Assembly: GCF_000153765.1 (NCBI RefSeq) | Contig: NZ_DS022295.1 | Span: 628,887 to 692,886 of the forward strand | Source of the DNA: Mariprofundus ferrooxydans PV-1 | Lineage (GTDB): Bacteria > Pseudomonadota > Zetaproteobacteria > Mariprofundales > Mariprofundaceae | DNA: 64,000 bases | Direction of reading: 5' to 3' | Part shown: in pieces, positions 865 through 21,778 of the stretch | Numbering within the stretch: position 1 is the stretch's first letter | Layout of the letters: each line of letters begins with the position of its first letter | The notes under the pieces: generated by a model | Told to the model about the DNA's origin: nothing | What the model saw: only the letters and a program-made list of their open reading frames with translations | Databases searched by the model: none | Position numbers and translations under genes: made by a program

Positions 865-1773
865 TTATTTGTCTTTCAAATCCCACACCCCGTCCCAGTC
901 TGATGCAGGCGGGTGTTGAGATAACTGGTCACAGCGATCAGCCATCACACGCCCTATACCCAGGCCGAAGTCACGGTATACTTTTAAAAACAGCGCTTTT
1001 GCAGCAACCCACTCGCGCTTGCAGAATAAGTCGTAGGCTTCTGAGTAGTAAGGGATAGAGTTCATTTTTTTGTCAAATCTCGGGTCATTATCAACGAGAA
1101 GCTCATACAGAGCTACCGGCTCGCGAAAGTTTTTCAATCGTACCCGGTCAATGAATCGCCAGGAAAATCTCGCATCGCCTTTGATATATACTTCAGCACT
1201 GTTGAAAAAACTCTCTGAAATCAGAATCCTGGCATCATAGAACTTGGACATCCCCTCTATTCGGGCTGCTTCATGTACACCGATGCCGATCGGGTGATTG
1301 CGTTGATCCAGATAGTAATAGACCAGCGCTATATCCCCGACTGTAATGCCAAAACCGACATCAATATTCGGCCGGGTCACGCCTGCATCCGTTGATTCAT
1401 TATACACACGCATACGTCCGGTCAGGCGATAAATATTTTCCAGGATGTATTTGGTATTATCTTCGGGGAAGATGGCCATCAATCCGTCGCCATAAATTTC
1501 CGTGTGCGTTTTATTGTGTCCCAGATACAGGTATTCATAAGAGGTCTTATGCACATCGAGAATGAATTTATCGTATGTGAATTCCTGTTCTTGGCTGTCA
1601 CTGTTATTTCGGTACATACCCTGCTCAAAATTCAGCAGAATATCAGTGGAGTCCCGCAGATCGCAGAACATAATGATTCGTTTCGATTTTTCAGCGGCGG
1701 GTTGATCACTGCATGCAACAGCTGCCTGTTCAGCCCCTGATATTGCCTTATCAGGTCTATTTGTGCTTACCAA
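865..1773 (-). CDS. Class III adenylate/guanylate cyclase-like protein
   Basis: 302 residues, no signal peptide or membrane helix. A class III cyclase catalytic domain occupies about residues 30-220. The first metal-binding stretch reads MFCDLRDSTD and the second YGDGLMAIF, so both metal aspartates are present. The Asn/Arg catalytic motif is altered: the usual V-N-x-A-A-R is V-H-E-A-A-R here, so the Asn is His while the transition-state Arg is kept. At the purine-selecting positions, alignment by eye puts Glu (E-I-Y-G-D) where adenylate cyclases have Lys, and His where they have Asp. Substrate is therefore uncertain. The C-terminal 80 residues (after LYELLVDND) are helical and may be a TPR-like tail. 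It is last in a leftward unit behind two TolB-like genes that are preceded by a CRP-type site. Confidence 0.75.
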   Translation of the reverse strand: MVSTNRPDKAISGAEQAAVACSDQPAAEKSKRIIMFCDLRDSTDILLNFEQGMYRNNSDSQEQEFTYDKFILDVHKTSYEYLYLGHNKTHTEIYGDGLMAIFPEDNTKYILENIYRLTGRMRVYNESTDAGVTRPNIDVGFGITVGDIALVYYYLDQRNHPIGIGVHEAARIEGMSKFYDARILISESFFNSAEVYIKGDARFSWRFIDRVRLKNFREPVALYELLVDNDPRFDKKMNSIPYYSEAYDLFCKREWVAAKALFLKVYRDFGLGIGRVMADRCDQLSQHPPASDWDGVWDLKDK

Positions 1774-1842
1774 GAGATCTTGCTCCTTCGTGTAAGCATG
1801 CAGCGGACGAATCTCTCTGACCAGTCATACAGGAGTAAAAAC

Positions 1843-2934
1843 TCAACTGACTTTTGCGGGCAGGAGAATCGTCCAGATATGGAAGCCGGACGTTCTTCCG
1901 CGTACCTGGTGGCTTTTACTCTCTTCACGACTGACCTTGCGGTCCGAATGGAAATAGATTCTGCCATTATTGGCAAAGCTGGGCGCGCCGTCGCTGGCCT
2001 TGTTGGTGGTCAGACGCGTCAGATTGCTACCATCACGACCGATCAGCCAGATGTCCCAATTACGCTGCTGCTTACTACTATGCCCGCCATCTTTATCATC
2101 TTCATCCTCATCACCGCGATTCGAGGTAAATGCGATCCAGCTGCCATCGGGGCTCCAGACAGGCTGGGCATCAACATGCTCACCGGAGGTCAGTTGTACC
2201 AGGTCCGAGCCGTCTGTATTCATCATGAACAGATGCCAGAAATGTCCATCCTGCATGGTAAATACCAGGCGTGAACCATCCGGCGAGAGCGCCGGGTTAG
2301 AGCCGGGAGAGAGCACCTTTTCAGCCCCCTGCTCAGTGATCAGGGTAAGGTTGTACTGATAACCACGTCTGTCCCAATCGATGAATGTGGCCTCTGTCTG
2401 TCTACCACGATGTCCAACAGCAGTGCCATGTTTTGGGGTCATGCGCGCAACAATCATCTCGCCATTGTTGAGTAGCACCGGGAATCGCAATTCGCCGTCC
2501 AGACGACGATACAACTTTCTGACTGATCCACCGTCTACCGGCTTCTCCCATAAATCCAGGCTGTTCTCACGGTAGGAAAGAAATGTCACCTTGTCCGGTC
2601 CATACCATGCGGCTGAATCCATTACCTGCTGATCGTAGTCGCTGACCACATTGATCGGATCACCATTTTCAAGCATCCGCTGCGATATAATCGATTTACC
2701 GCGATGCGTCGACACCACGAGCAGATGGTTACCATCCGGTGAAACCCTGGGATACATCTCATTTTCACCGGGCTCCAGGGTCAGCAGGCTGGCATGATCA
2801 CCCGCGTCAGCCGACTCATCCGTATGCAGTGCCTTGCCTGCCTCTTCCAGCCAGTCCATCAGATCTGCCGCCTGCGACGCAGAAGGCACAGACAGCAGCA
2901 GCAGAAGGGTCAGGCTGACAAAAGATTGCTTCAC
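1843..2934 (-). CDS. TolB-like periplasmic beta-propeller protein (WD40/PD40 repeats)
   Basis: 363 residues with a Sec signal peptide (hydrophobic LTLLLLLSVPS, probable cleavage after SQA). The mature protein is built from TolB/PD40 blades with the repeated signature S-P-D-G (SPDGNHLL, SPDGSRLVFTMQ, SPDGSWIAFTSN) and LVQLTSGEH/LTRLTTNKA strands. TolB itself also has an N-terminal domain and works with Pal in the Tol envelope system; this protein lacks the rest of a tol operon beside it, so it is a paralogue of unknown partner. It lies 12 bases downstream of a second protein of the same family and equal length, which points to tandem duplication and co-transcription. An acidic/basic low-complexity patch (GDEDEDDKDGG, about residues 275-285) is unusual. 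Confidence 0.75.
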   Translation of the reverse strand: MKQSFVSLTLLLLLSVPSASQAADLMDWLEEAGKALHTDESADAGDHASLLTLEPGENEMYPRVSPDGNHLLVVSTHRGKSIISQRMLENGDPINVVSDYDQQVMDSAAWYGPDKVTFLSYRENSLDLWEKPVDGGSVRKLYRRLDGELRFPVLLNNGEMIVARMTPKHGTAVGHRGRQTEATFIDWDRRGYQYNLTLITEQGAEKVLSPGSNPALSPDGSRLVFTMQDGHFWHLFMMNTDGSDLVQLTSGEHVDAQPVWSPDGSWIAFTSNRGDEDEDDKDGGHSSKQQRNWDIWLIGRDGSNLTRLTTNKASDGAPSFANNGRIYFHSDRKVSREESKSHQVRGRTSGFHIWTILLPAKVS

Positions 2935-2946
2935 AGACGCTGATCC

Positions 2947-4038
2947 CTACTTCAGCTTCAACTGCCAGATATTCCAGCCCGACGTCAGCTCGGTCTGGGG
3001 CTTTTCAGGATCGCGATTAGAGTGAAACACGACTGTATCCTTATCCATCCACGCAGGTCCGCCATCAACAGCGCGGCTGGCATTGGTCAGGCGAGTTATA
3101 CTGTTGGTGTTCAGATCCATCATATAGATAGAAGTGCGGGTGACTGCACCGGCTGAGTCCCGATTCGATACAAACAGCACACGACTGCCATCCGGACTCC
3201 ATGCCGGCTCAAAATCACCGAATGGAGAGTCGGTCAACTGGACCAGTTCACCACCGTTGATCTCCTGCATCCACAGATCGTAATTACCCTTCGTTTCACG
3301 CACAAATATCACTTTTCGTCCATCCGGTGAAATAGTGCCGTCAAAGGCATTGGGAATCATCGTCAGATCACCGCTCTTTCGGTCAAGTATATACAGCGAT
3401 GGTGGATCGAATTTATTATCATTGCCTGCCTTGGTGGCCTTATAACCGGCCTTGATTCTGAAGTTATCGCCATCATAGGTGCGCCAGAGCTGTCCGATCA
3501 GTTCGGAATCCGGATGCTTGCCAAAAGAGCTCAGCATCTCATTCTGGCGCAATTTCTGAAACGGCGTATCAAAGCACCAGACCTGACCATCACTGCTGGC
3601 ATTGAGGTGATAGGGAATCACGCCGCCACGGTAGGTCGCACCCGAGATAATAGCGAGGTGGCTCTCCCCGTGACCGCGCCACATCCAGGCGGAAATCGGC
3701 CCCAGTCGATTACTGACATAGCCGACCGAGCCATCCTGCACAGCCACGCCGAATCGGATAGCTTCATCCACAACCATCGGCTTTACTTCGCGCACTGCCG
3801 CCTTGGGAGAGAATTTAGAAACACGAACCACGCCACTATGATCCGGTACCATCGTGCTATACACCATAAAATCGCCAGCCACTGAGGGGTAGATGCTATC
3901 CACGCCCTTGGTAACAATTAACGGCGACACAGGATATAACGCATCCTGAGCCGTTTTATGGCCAGGTTCTGCTGAAAATACGGGTTGGCAAACAGTCATC
4001 GCGGCAGCGAATCCCGCCAGTAACAGTCTGGATTTCAT
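2947..4038 (-). CDS. TolB-like periplasmic beta-propeller protein, first of a tandem pair
   Basis: 363 residues with a Sec signal peptide (LLLAGFAAAMTVCQPVFSA). Propeller blades are recognisable from SPDGRKVIFVRE, LVQLTDSPFGDFEPAWSPDG and ITRLTNASRA, the TolB/PD40 pattern. The neighbouring downstream gene encodes a protein of the same length and fold, although the two diverge strongly outside the blade signatures. It is first in the leftward unit that ends with the class III cyclase. Upstream, within 90 bases of the ATG, are an 8-bp direct repeat and a perfect CRP-like palindrome. Function is unknown; a periplasmic sensing or scaffold role is a guess based on the fold only. Confidence 0.75.
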   Translation of the reverse strand: MKSRLLLAGFAAAMTVCQPVFSAEPGHKTAQDALYPVSPLIVTKGVDSIYPSVAGDFMVYSTMVPDHSGVVRVSKFSPKAAVREVKPMVVDEAIRFGVAVQDGSVGYVSNRLGPISAWMWRGHGESHLAIISGATYRGGVIPYHLNASSDGQVWCFDTPFQKLRQNEMLSSFGKHPDSELIGQLWRTYDGDNFRIKAGYKATKAGNDNKFDPPSLYILDRKSGDLTMIPNAFDGTISPDGRKVIFVRETKGNYDLWMQEINGGELVQLTDSPFGDFEPAWSPDGSRVLFVSNRDSAGAVTRTSIYMMDLNTNSITRLTNASRAVDGGPAWMDKDTVVFHSNRDPEKPQTELTSGWNIWQLKLK

Positions 4039-7799: not shown

Positions 7800-8720
7800 A
7801 TGTCTTTGATACTGGCTGCCGATATTGGCGGCACCAATATTCGGGCAGCTGTCGTTGATAGCTACGGCACACTGCTGCATGAGCATAACGTCACAGCCCG
7901 GCTAAGCGACCCTGAGCTGAGCGCAGACGCGATTATCACCATTATCGCCGGTCTGCTGCGTCCGATGCTTAAACATCATATTACGGCTGTCGGCCTTGGC
8001 TTCCCCGGCTTTTTTCGCGGTGACAGCGGTATGTTGGCCGCTTCCCCTAATCTGCCCAACATCAGCGAACTGGCGCTGGCTGATCGCCTGCATGAAGCCC
8101 TCGACCTACCCGTAGCCGTGCAGAACGACGCACTGTGCGCCGCTCTCGGAGAACATCAGTTCGGTGCGGGCAGAGGCTCACAAAACCTGCTGCATATGAC
8201 ACTGGGCACCGGCATTGGCGGCGGTCTGATCCTGAACAAGCGGGCATGGAGCGGTGAATTCGGCATGGCCATGGAGATAGGCCACTTGCGCGTAGCCGAA
8301 GAACGGCTCTGCGGCTGCGGTCTGCACGGCTGTCTAGAAGCCTATGCCTCTGCTACAGCTGTATCCGATCGTTATAAGGAAGAGAGCGGAGAACAACATA
8401 GTGCCGAGACGATCTATCAGCTTGCCGTCGCAGGCGATCAACAGGCGAAAACCATCATTGAACAAGCAGGTCATTATCTGGGGGCTGCCATTGCCGAAGC
8501 GATCAAGCTGCTGGATATCCATAACGTCACGATCAGCGGCGGCCTGACAGGCGCATGGCCTCTCCTGCACCCTGCCCTGGTAAAGACGCTGGATGAGCGA
8601 CTGATTCCTCCGCTCAGAAGCACTGTCAATGTATATCGAACGACACTCGGCGATCATGCAGGTCTGCTCGGCGCCTCGGTGATTGCACGCAATGCGCTTG
8701 CAGCCCGCGATGCAGAGTAA
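7800..8720 (+). CDS. ROK family glucokinase
   Basis: 306 residues with the actin-like ATPase fold: phosphate-1 motif ADIGGTNIRAAVVD at the N-terminus, catalytic Asp in VAVQNDALCAALGE, glycine-rich LGTGIGGGLI, and the ROK zinc-binding signature CGCGLHGCLEAYAS (about residues 170-183) preceded by EIGHLRV with its zinc His. Most likely it phosphorylates glucose released from or destined for glycogen. Other ROK sugar kinases (N-acetylglucosamine, mannose, fructose) cannot be excluded without assay. It follows glgA by 5 bases and shares its transcript. The small transposon-like element begins 16 bases after its stop. Confidence 0.88.
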   Translation: MSLILAADIGGTNIRAAVVDSYGTLLHEHNVTARLSDPELSADAIITIIAGLLRPMLKHHITAVGLGFPGFFRGDSGMLAASPNLPNISELALADRLHEALDLPVAVQNDALCAALGEHQFGAGRGSQNLLHMTLGTGIGGGLILNKRAWSGEFGMAMEIGHLRVAEERLCGCGLHGCLEAYASATAVSDRYKEESGEQHSAETIYQLAVAGDQQAKTIIEQAGHYLGAAIAEAIKLLDIHNVTISGGLTGAWPLLHPALVKTLDERLIPPLRSTVNVYRTTLGDHAGLLGASVIARNALAARDAE

Positions 8721-8726
8721 CTAACT

Positions 8727-9161
8727 ACAACCATAGCAGGGCAATCGAATTAAAATATTGTAGTCACCAATATGAGTACATGGATGATCTAGAACTGGAA
8801 ATATACTTGTCCTTTCTTTGGCGGCACAAAAAGGCAGGAGCCGTTTGGACGAGCTTTAGCTCGCCCGTAGGGTGAAAGCCAGGAGGCTTGAATCACAAAA
8901 AGGCAGGAGCCGTTTGGACGAGCTTTAGCTCGCCCGTAGGGTGAAAGCCATGAGGCTTGAATCACAAATAGGCAGGAGCCGTTTGGACGGGCTTTAGCTC
9001 GCCCACGGGTGAGGGGCAGGAAGCCCCGAATCACAAAAAGGACAGGTAAATACTGATGCAGTCCTTACTTGATATTACGATCAGCTACGGCACGGCTACG
9101 GATTGAATATTCAGTAAATGAATAAAGGCGCATTTTAATACGATTGCCCTGACAACCATAG
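8727..9161. mobile_element. MITE-like non-autonomous transposon with 10-bp target duplication
   Basis: An element of 415 bp (8737-9151) is bounded by 20-bp terminal inverted repeats with one mismatch; the outermost 11 bp, CAGGGCAATCG, are perfect (8737-8756 and 9132-9151). Immediately outside, ACAACCATAG occurs as a direct repeat at 8727-8736 and 9152-9161, a 10-bp target-site duplication. No transposase is encoded. The interior holds three 69-bp tandem repeats. A partial second copy of the left end lies at 21661-21778. Target duplications of this length occur in IS4- and ISAs1-type elements; which family would mobilise it is not determined. Confidence 0.82.
8825..9031. repeat. Three tandem 69-bp repeats inside the MITE-like element
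   Basis: Units begin at 8825, 8894 and 8963, with the next partial unit starting at 9032; the period is exactly 69 bp. Units 1 and 2 are almost identical, unit 3 has diverged near its end. Each unit contains an imperfect hairpin around GAGCTTTAGCTC. Because 69 is a multiple of three, the minus strand stays open across the array and would read a 23-residue repeat; this looks like a by-product of the repeat length, not a gene. There are no unique spacers, so it is not a CRISPR array. Confidence 0.9.
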
Positions 9162-9227: not shown

Positions 9228-9250
9228 AACCCCGATAAAATCGGGGTTTC
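9228..9250 (+). terminator. Rho-independent terminator, probably for glgA-glk
   Basis: AACCCCGA-TAAAA-TCGGGGTT forms an 8-bp stem with a short loop, followed on the plus strand by a T-rich stretch (TTCTACTTATTATT). The region lies downstream of glk and beyond the transposon-like insertion. The element therefore appears to have landed between the glk stop codon and its terminator. Confidence 0.55.
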
Positions 9251-9371: not shown

Positions 9372-9857
9372 ATGAAATTCGGCCCGCAGAAAGTAATCAG
9401 GTTTGACTATACCCTGTCTGATAACGATGGAGAGGTGATTGACTCCACCGAAGGACAGGAGCCGCTGGCTTTTATCTATGGTTCGGCTGCCTTAAAACCT
9501 GCTCTGCGGGAGCAAATGGAAGGCAGGCAGGCCGGTGACAGCTTTAAGGTAACAGTACAGCCGGAAGACGGTTATGGCTTGCGCGATGAAAGTCTTATCA
9601 GGGAAGTCGGACGCGATATGTTCGGCGATATCGAACAGCTTGAAGCAGGCATGTTATTTCAAACGGCAAATGCCGGCGGCGCCACTGAAATGGTAACGGT
9701 CGTCGCAGTCGGTGATGACACGGTCACCGTGGATCACAATCATCCGCTGGCCGGTGTTACGATGAATTTTGCTATCGATGTCGTCGAAGTGCGCGATGCT
9801 ACGCAGGAAGAGATCAGCCATGGCCATGTCCACGGACCTGGTGGACACCAGCACTAG
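9372..9857 (+). CDS. slyD: FKBP-type peptidyl-prolyl isomerase, SlyD family
   Basis: 161 residues. The SlyD/FkpA-like FKBP core opens with VIRFDYTLSDNDGEVIDSTEG and continues with PLAFIYGSAALKPALREQMEG; the inserted-flap chaperone region follows (QPEDGYGLRDESLI through VDHNHPLAGVTMNF). The C-terminus is short and histidine-rich (HGHVHGPGGHQH), the metal-binding tail that in SlyD binds nickel. It acts in the cytoplasm as folding helper and proline isomerase, possibly as metallochaperone. Its stop codon overlaps that of the convergent GST gene. Confidence 0.92.
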   Translation: MKFGPQKVIRFDYTLSDNDGEVIDSTEGQEPLAFIYGSAALKPALREQMEGRQAGDSFKVTVQPEDGYGLRDESLIREVGRDMFGDIEQLEAGMLFQTANAGGATEMVTVVAVGDDTVTVDHNHPLAGVTMNFAIDVVEVRDATQEEISHGHVHGPGGHQH

Positions 9858-20672: not shown

Positions 20673-21500
20673 ATGGCTATTCTGCACAGATATATAATCG
20701 CTGCCCTGATCGGCCTGATCACAGCTCCAGCAGTTGCCGCAGCATCCGACAATATAGACGGCAAGGCGCTTTACGCAAAAAACTGTGCATCATGTCATGG
20801 CGCAAGTGGCGGCATCTCTCCCATGGGCAAAAGTCTGAAGCCCTACCCTGCGCGCAATCATCGCGCCATTGCGAAATATGCCAGCCGTAACGAGCTGCGC
20901 CGGATTATCACCAATGGCGTTGAGGGGACGAGCATGACCCCCAAAAAATATTCCCTTGATCCGCTTCAGATTGAAGCAGTCATCGACTATATCCGCACCT
21001 TCGAATATACCCCGGATCTGGTCAATGGCAAAAAGCGCTTCGAGGCAGTTTGCTCGGGTTGCCACGGCATGGACGGGCGGGCTAAAACAGGCGTTGGCGC
21101 CAAAAACCTGGTCTACTCCAACCTCGATCTGAAAGGCATCGTGCATACCATGCGCTATGGTCGGCCCGGCACACTGATGACCAGCAAACGCCACCAGTTA
21201 AGTAATACCGATATCGCTGATATTGCCAACTATGTCTACTCCCTGCGCCATCTGGCCAGCGCGAAAGAGGGCAGAAAACTCTACGCAAAAAACTGCGCCA
21301 CATGTCATGCCACGCCTGCATCGATCAAACTCTTCGGCAATGCCGCTGCAAAACGCTCGATTCGGGATATGGATGACCGCGAACTTGATCTGCGTATCCG
21401 CCACGGTCGCCATGTGGATAGAGCAGGCGAGCATATTGCCCACCTCTCCGACGACGATATTCAGGATCTGATCGCCTATATCCGGCAGCAGGTGAAATAA
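20673..21500 (+). CDS. Periplasmic triheme c-type cytochrome
   Basis: 275 residues with a Sec signal peptide (hydrophobic IIAALIGLITAPAVAA). Three CXXCH heme-binding motifs, CASCH, CSGCH and CATCH, each open a class I cytochrome c-like domain, so the protein is three tandem domains of about 85 residues. Likely distal Met ligands are in VEGTSMTPKKYSL and RPGTLMTSKRHQL; the third domain lacks an equally clear Met. This protein probably transfers electrons between membrane complexes and terminal acceptors. There is no operon partner: a repeat-rich gap follows. Confidence 0.88.
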   Translation: MAILHRYIIAALIGLITAPAVAAASDNIDGKALYAKNCASCHGASGGISPMGKSLKPYPARNHRAIAKYASRNELRRIITNGVEGTSMTPKKYSLDPLQIEAVIDYIRTFEYTPDLVNGKKRFEAVCSGCHGMDGRAKTGVGAKNLVYSNLDLKGIVHTMRYGRPGTLMTSKRHQLSNTDIADIANYVYSLRHLASAKEGRKLYAKNCATCHATPASIKLFGNAAAKRSIRDMDDRELDLRIRHGRHVDRAGEHIAHLSDDDIQDLIAYIRQQVK

Positions 21501-21660
21501 GACGCCAGCCTTTGACTGTCGGTGTTGCCAAAAAACCTCCTTTTAGATCTGCCTCGGTATGCATATTTTAGCGGAGTAGAGCGGCGGAGCCGTGGCCGTT
21601 AAAATATTCATGCTGAGGGGACCCGAAGGGCAGAGATAGCGGAGGCGGCTTTCTTTCGTC

Positions 21661-21778
21661 CTTTCTTTGCCGCCAAAGAAAGGACAAGTATATATCACAT
21701 ATACATTGTGCCAGTTCAAGAAGCATCCATGTTATTCATATTGAGTGACTACAATATAATTTAAATGCGATTGCCCTG
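21661..21778 (-). repeat. Partial second copy of the MITE-like element end
   Basis: The reverse complement of this stretch begins CAGGGCAATCGCATTTAAAT and runs through ATTGTAGTCAC, AATATGA, CATGGATG, GAACTGG and ATATACTTGTCCTTTCTTTGG, matching 8737-8830 in the same order with small gaps. A perfect TCCTTTCTTT/AAAGAAAGGA hairpin around GCCGCC lies at its inner end. I find no second terminal repeat in 21501-21660, so the copy is truncated or rearranged. The remainder of that gap contains an imperfect palindrome (GCATATTTTAGCGG with CCGTTAAAATATTCATGC) and no gene. Confidence 0.75.

Follow-up and report, generated by a model that had tools for sequence, protein, structure and literature searches.

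Genomic setting and boundaries of the element

The window, i.e., the whole 64-kb stretch of the Mariprofundus ferrooxydans PV-1 genome that was analysed (C3:628887-692886), contains a glucokinase-like gene (glk), a 415-bp non-autonomous element that starts 16 bp past the glk stop codon, a terminator-like hairpin and a gene for a prolyl isomerase, which are arranged as follows:

7800-8720, plus strand: ROK-family glucokinase-like gene, glk (PF00480, E 5.7e-67)
8727-8736, no strand: left target-site duplication ACAACCATAG, read directly; duplications of 10 bp likewise flank other copies as well as 10 autonomous IS copies of a sister genome
8737-8756, plus strand: left terminal inverted repeat (TIR) CAGGGCAATCGAATTAAAAT, with 95% identity to either end of the ISAs1 IS of sister species G006
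8757-8824, plus strand: left sub-terminal arm, with a homologous arm in the ~366-bp sister elements
8825-8893, plus strand: three-hairpin unit 1 (covariance model R2, 82.3 bits)
8894-8962, plus strand: three-hairpin unit 2, 99% identical to unit 1 (R2, 83.9 bits)
8963-9031, plus strand: three-hairpin unit 3, diverged, with compensated stems (R2, 80.6 bits)
9032-9046, plus strand: beginning of a truncated fourth unit (CACAAAAAGGACAGG), from tandem-repeat finding (TRF)
9047-9131, plus strand: right sub-terminal arm; the other arm of the 368-bp sister element matches it at 83% identity
9132-9151, minus strand: right TIR CAGGGCAATCGTATTAAAAT in minus-strand reading, from TIR alignment
9152-9161, no strand: right target-site duplication ACAACCATAG, read directly
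9228-9248, plus strand: intrinsic-terminator-like hairpin downstream of the element
9372-9857, plus strand: FKBP-type prolyl isomerase gene, the next downstream (PF00254, E 2.2e-10)

An earlier note had described a complete MITE-like element with 20-bp inverted ends and a 10-bp target duplication, inserted at 8737 and 9151, and both the architecture and the exact boundaries were borne out. The two TIRs are complementary at 19 of 20 positions, and ACAACCATAG abuts both of them directly; the probability that a perfect 10-bp repeat would stand by chance at exactly both predicted positions is about 1e-6. With up to three mismatches allowed, the TIR pattern occurs three times in the 64-kb window, compared with an expectation of 0.01. 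The element was also said to have no transposase, which is correct because its sole open reading frame of at least 60 aa (81 aa, minus strand) is simply a translation of the repeat itself. The 69-bp triplication that had been seen inside the element was recovered as well (TRF: 69-bp period, 3.2 copies, 8825-9046), with the addition that it belongs to a structured repeat that is widely dispersed and occurs outside the MITE as well. A single base separates units 1 and 2, and unit 3 aligns at 75% identity without gaps. The fold of the whole element was far more stable than those of shuffled sequences on both strands (z of -7.4 and -8.9).

As the element lies between glk and the terminator-like hairpin, the repeat array is probably part of the glk transcript, in its 3' untranslated region. 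None of the 21 other species of the genus had an FKBP gene within 1.5 kb of glk, and the joined flanks of the element aligned inside glk only; since these species do not retain the glk-FKBP neighbourhood, no empty site could be demonstrated.

A MITE family and its putative ISAs1-type partner

A BLAST search of the element against its own 2.99-Mb genome revealed six further copies or remnants that share ends or arms with it:

C4:81486-81853: complete copy, 368 bp
C3:~206373-206737: complete copy, ~365 bp, with a degenerate duplication (CCCGCCTTTG/CCTCCCTTTG, 8 of 10 positions by eye)
C3:423271-423519: complete copy, 249 bp, with one hairpin unit and an imperfect duplication
C4:1290440-1292559: complete copy, 2120 bp (375 bp without a nested IS), with a perfect 10-bp target duplication CTCAATTATC
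near C4:~794547: decayed copy
window positions ~21510-21778 (start approximate), minus strand: truncated second member in the window, compared by eye, with the left end lost and the right end CAGGGCAATCGCATTTAAAT intact

Among these copies the end arms are homologous and the centres vary, with hairpin units in the element beside glk and a different palindromic module in the copies of ~366 bp; the palindromic centre of the second member in the window also differs from that of the 8737-9151 element. The 249-bp sister with its single unit supports a change in the number of units. The 2120-bp copy was considered as a candidate autonomous element and rejected, since the 562-aa transposase in it is encoded by a nested IS5-family IS (NF033578; positions 1648-3392 of the extracted locus) that has TATTTA on both sides and accounts for the unusual length of this copy. 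Elsewhere in the window, a 44-bp direct repeat (20756-20799 and 21266-21309, 77% identical, 510 bp apart) resembles, by eye, a duplicated cytochrome c domain.

The earlier note had proposed that the termini be sought across the genome, both for related elements and for an IS with the same ends. The termini are indeed found again at the ends of elements in the genome and in the genus, where the end motif was present in 17 of 23 genomes and its reversed control gave no match. The 20-bp ends are also those of an IS, which was found in sister species and not in the host itself. In one of these species (G006), an IS of 1333 bp (C44:65-1397) has identical 19-bp ends on both sides and encodes a 376-aa transposase that matches NF033564 (ISAs1) at 406.9 bits, compared with a cut-off of 70 bits, as well as PF13808 and PF01609; on these profile matches, it is assigned to the ISAs1 family with an ISAs1-type DDE transposase. 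The MITE TIRs are 95% identical to both of its ends over 20 bp, with 19-20 of 20 bases matching. In the host genome, no ISAs1 transposase was detected above the cut-offs, the best PF13808 score being 13.7 bits against a cut-off of 32.3 bits, so that the MITE family looks orphaned there. The species nearest by glk protein (G009) has matching IS ends, which are broken at contig ends or at a gap. A search of plasmids and phages gave no match to the element.

Evidence for the length of the target duplication came from another sister species (G016), which carries many near-identical IS copies broken at contig ends. Among its 55 end flanks, reverse-complement matching gave 10 pairs of exactly 10 bp and no pair of 11 bp, compared with 0.01 matching pairs at 8 bp in shuffled flanks, and every matching pair joins one end at the transposase start to one end at the transposase stop. 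By this comparison of flanks, a 10-bp duplication is characteristic of the ISAs1-type IS in the genus, and its length agrees with that at the MITE. Small elements in two other genomes also have 10-bp duplications, one of 325 bp in G021 (CCGCCAAACA) and one of 90 bp in G005 (TGTTTAAGTG). It weighs against the ISAs1 reading that no recognisable duplication was seen at the G006 IS copy and at several small elements. Outside the ends of the G016 copies, the target showed a weak preference for T at 16 and 20 bases and for G at 22 bases (~0.15-0.2 bit each; flanks L159-L213); a target motif for the IS was rejected, as the T preference is only weak.

In sister species, five small elements bounded by ISAs1-type ends (L118 514-714, L119 557-881, L120 535-757, L121 472-561, and L122 553-697; 90-325 bp) have unrelated interiors, and several of them contain other palindromic repeats (GTCATCCCCGAATG..., CCCGCGAAGGCGGG...). 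It looks as if ISAs1-type ends frame interchangeable hairpin cargo, which would make the interior of such a MITE a replaceable palindromic load.

Taken by sequence, the MITE has the 20-bp ends of the sister-species ISAs1 element and a duplication of that element's length, and we consider it very probable that the 415-bp MITE was mobilised in trans by an ISAs1-family DDE transposase. What the comparison demonstrates is compatibility of ends and not descent from a G006-type IS: past the terminal ~20 bp no similarity was found between MITE and IS, and for this reason the element is better described as an end-compatible MITE than as an internal-deletion copy. That so little is common to the two, and that the host genome has no ISAs1 transposase, could also be explained if a transposase of another DDE family with similar ends moves the MITE and the match to ISAs1 is convergent; however, agreement of 19-20 of 20 bases at both ends, together with a 10-bp duplication equal in length to that of the ISAs1 IS of the same genus, makes such convergence highly improbable.

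If ISAs1-type mobilisation is accepted, an ISAs1-type IS would formerly have been active in the host lineage, and its transposase would have bound the 20-bp ends of the MITE, excised or copied it, and inserted it at a staggered cut of 10 bp just past the glk stop codon, where gap repair would have left ACAACCATAG on both sides. With the transposase now missing from the host, the MITE should be immobile. Its centre is palindromic cargo of an exchangeable kind, in this element a dispersed three-hairpin repeat in three tandem copies; the tandem array was probably expanded by slippage or unequal recombination, given the single-base difference between units 1 and 2 and the one unit of the 249-bp sister.

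The resemblance to the ISAs1 (H-repeat) family lies in the 20-bp ends of the G006 IS, CAGGGCAATCG(C/A)ATTAAAAT, and in the 10-bp target duplication seen in the genus, whereas the window element lacks a transposase and has only the terminal ~20 bp in common with this IS. BOX elements of Streptococcus pneumoniae, which have fixed end modules and a variable number of middle units, are similar in having fixed ends around a variable middle-unit count; however, the sequences differ, and the ends in the window are IS-type TIRs with a target duplication. MITEPye1 of Paracoccus yeei, a bacterial MITE with IS1182-type ends (PMC11578231), is likewise short, intergenic and without a transposase, has an IS-matching TIR and a duplication, and folds into long stem-loops. 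Unlike MITEPye1, the MITE in the window has ISAs1 as its partner family, its partner is missing from the host, and its palindromic cargo is exchangeable. In itself, the MITE is an ordinary but unusually well-documented ISAs1-type element. An orphan MITE family is now tied to an autonomous partner in sister species, with ten precise 10-bp duplications, which makes trans-mobilisation testable.

The three-hairpin cargo unit

The three-hairpin module is more interesting than the MITE that carries it, and this cargo deserves separate study. Aligned units of the genus are 69-76 nt long and consist of three stem-loops with conserved linkers (UUGGAC ... GCCCGNAGGGUGAGG ... GAAUCA) and many compensatory changes; elsewhere in the genus they occur singly or in tandem. 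Base pairs are exchanged at several positions, such as pair 6 of hairpin 1 (GC 32, CG 28) and pairs 3 (GC 44, CG 17) and 4 (GC 31, CG 23, AT 12) of hairpin 3. Among distinct sequences, Watson-Crick pairs made up 84% in hairpin 2 and 90% in hairpin 3, compared with means of 64% and 70% (maxima of 71% and 77%) in a control in which 3' arms were swapped between equal-length sequences.

Searches for the unit with the covariance model R2 gave 53 matches in the host genome; of 120 relatives, 61 had matches, and so did 59 of 299 Pseudomonadota genomes, approximately a fifth of this sample, for which the numbers of copies were subject to a cap. Exact matches to the linker pattern were found in Zetaproteobacteria including Mariprofundus, Akkermansia, other Verrucomicrobiales, Deltaproteobacteria MAGs, Pseudomonadales, and Ectothiorhodospiraceae; a single match in Saprospirales has no hairpins and is probably due to chance. 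In one genome (G072), the same unit lies in two differing flanking contexts, and thus it is a module in its own right. No Rfam 15 family reached its gathering score in the window, no unit was matched in seven loci, and the best hit on the array was RsmY with 14 bits against a gathering score of 57. Literature searches by sequence strings and by topic, within the collection of papers covered, found no description of the unit, and among the papers listed none gave its sequence in a relevant context. The cargo is thus a high-copy module with strong compensatory change that is absent from Rfam and present in at least one phylum besides Pseudomonadota.

Two explanations of the unit were considered, both of which concern the cargo and leave the reading of the element as a MITE unaffected. 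It might be a dispersed decoy RNA for CsrA/RsmA, in which GGA hairpins transcribed from the 3' ends of genes titrate the regulator. Such a decoy is suggested by the GGA loops of hairpins 1 and 3 and by the two CsrA homologues of the host: among 76 units, 80% have GGA within the inner portion of hairpin 1 and 70% within that of hairpin 3, and 29 of the 40 distinct hairpin-3 sequences whose stems have at least four pairs carry GGA in the loop. CANGGANG, which matches the RsmE site consensus, occurs in 24 of 52 distinct hairpin-3 sequences. The unit combines GGA in loops with covarying stems, as a decoy would, and the array beside glk precedes a terminator-like site. However, stem mismatches were equally often G-T and A-C (16 vs 14, p=0.86), which could not be used to choose a strand and weighs against RNA because selection on the RNA of one strand should favour G-U; RNA-level selection, as read from aligned stems, is thus not shown by the mismatch counts. 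The units show only a weak bias in orientation relative to the upstream gene (23 same vs 13 opposite), and those of Akkermansia and Verrucomicrobiales retain the linkers, mostly without GGA loops. We therefore regard a decoy function as unlikely. If the module does work as RNA, it would represent a large unnoticed class.

The other explanation, a REP-like DNA palindrome module whose hairpins are near-perfect at the DNA level, was given about an even chance. Such a module might be maintained by single-stranded DNA processing or by template-switch correction of quasi-palindromes, and it might be spread by some enzyme and by passengers such as the present MITE. It would account for stems that carry compensatory changes together with wobble pairs that lack strand asymmetry, for the intergenic position of the units, few of which lie between divergent genes, and for their mosaic combinations with other palindromic modules. 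A link to RAYT or IS200-type (Y1) transposases was rejected, as the unit is near only 2 of 30 Y1_Tnp loci in the genus; no dedicated enzyme was identified, and linkers conserved across phyla exceed what a palindrome needs. On balance, a decoy RNA is no more likely than a DNA-level palindrome module. The broader proposal that the unit is an uncatalogued cross-phylum structured module with freely exchanged stems, which acts as transcribed RNA (e.g., a mobile CsrA-like decoy) and hitch-hikes in ISAs1-type MITEs, is in our view unlikely.

Among known systems, REP/BIME sequences with RAYT are similar in being dispersed intergenic palindromes with compensated stems, whereas the unit has three different hairpins in 69-76 bp, is repeated in direct tandem and shows no RAYT linkage. 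Decoys of the CsrB/RsmZ type and the candidate RNA TwoAYGGAY (listed in PMC2864571; its loop motif is taken from the name) share GGA or AYGGAY in hairpin loops. Unlike these RNAs, the units have no Rfam match, are dispersed in high copy and also occur in lineages whose units have no GGA loops. In addition, units were observed just downstream of a tmRNA-like sequence in two genomes of the same family (L238 and L240), which was recognised by the Rfam tmRNA model in L240 and by eye in L238.
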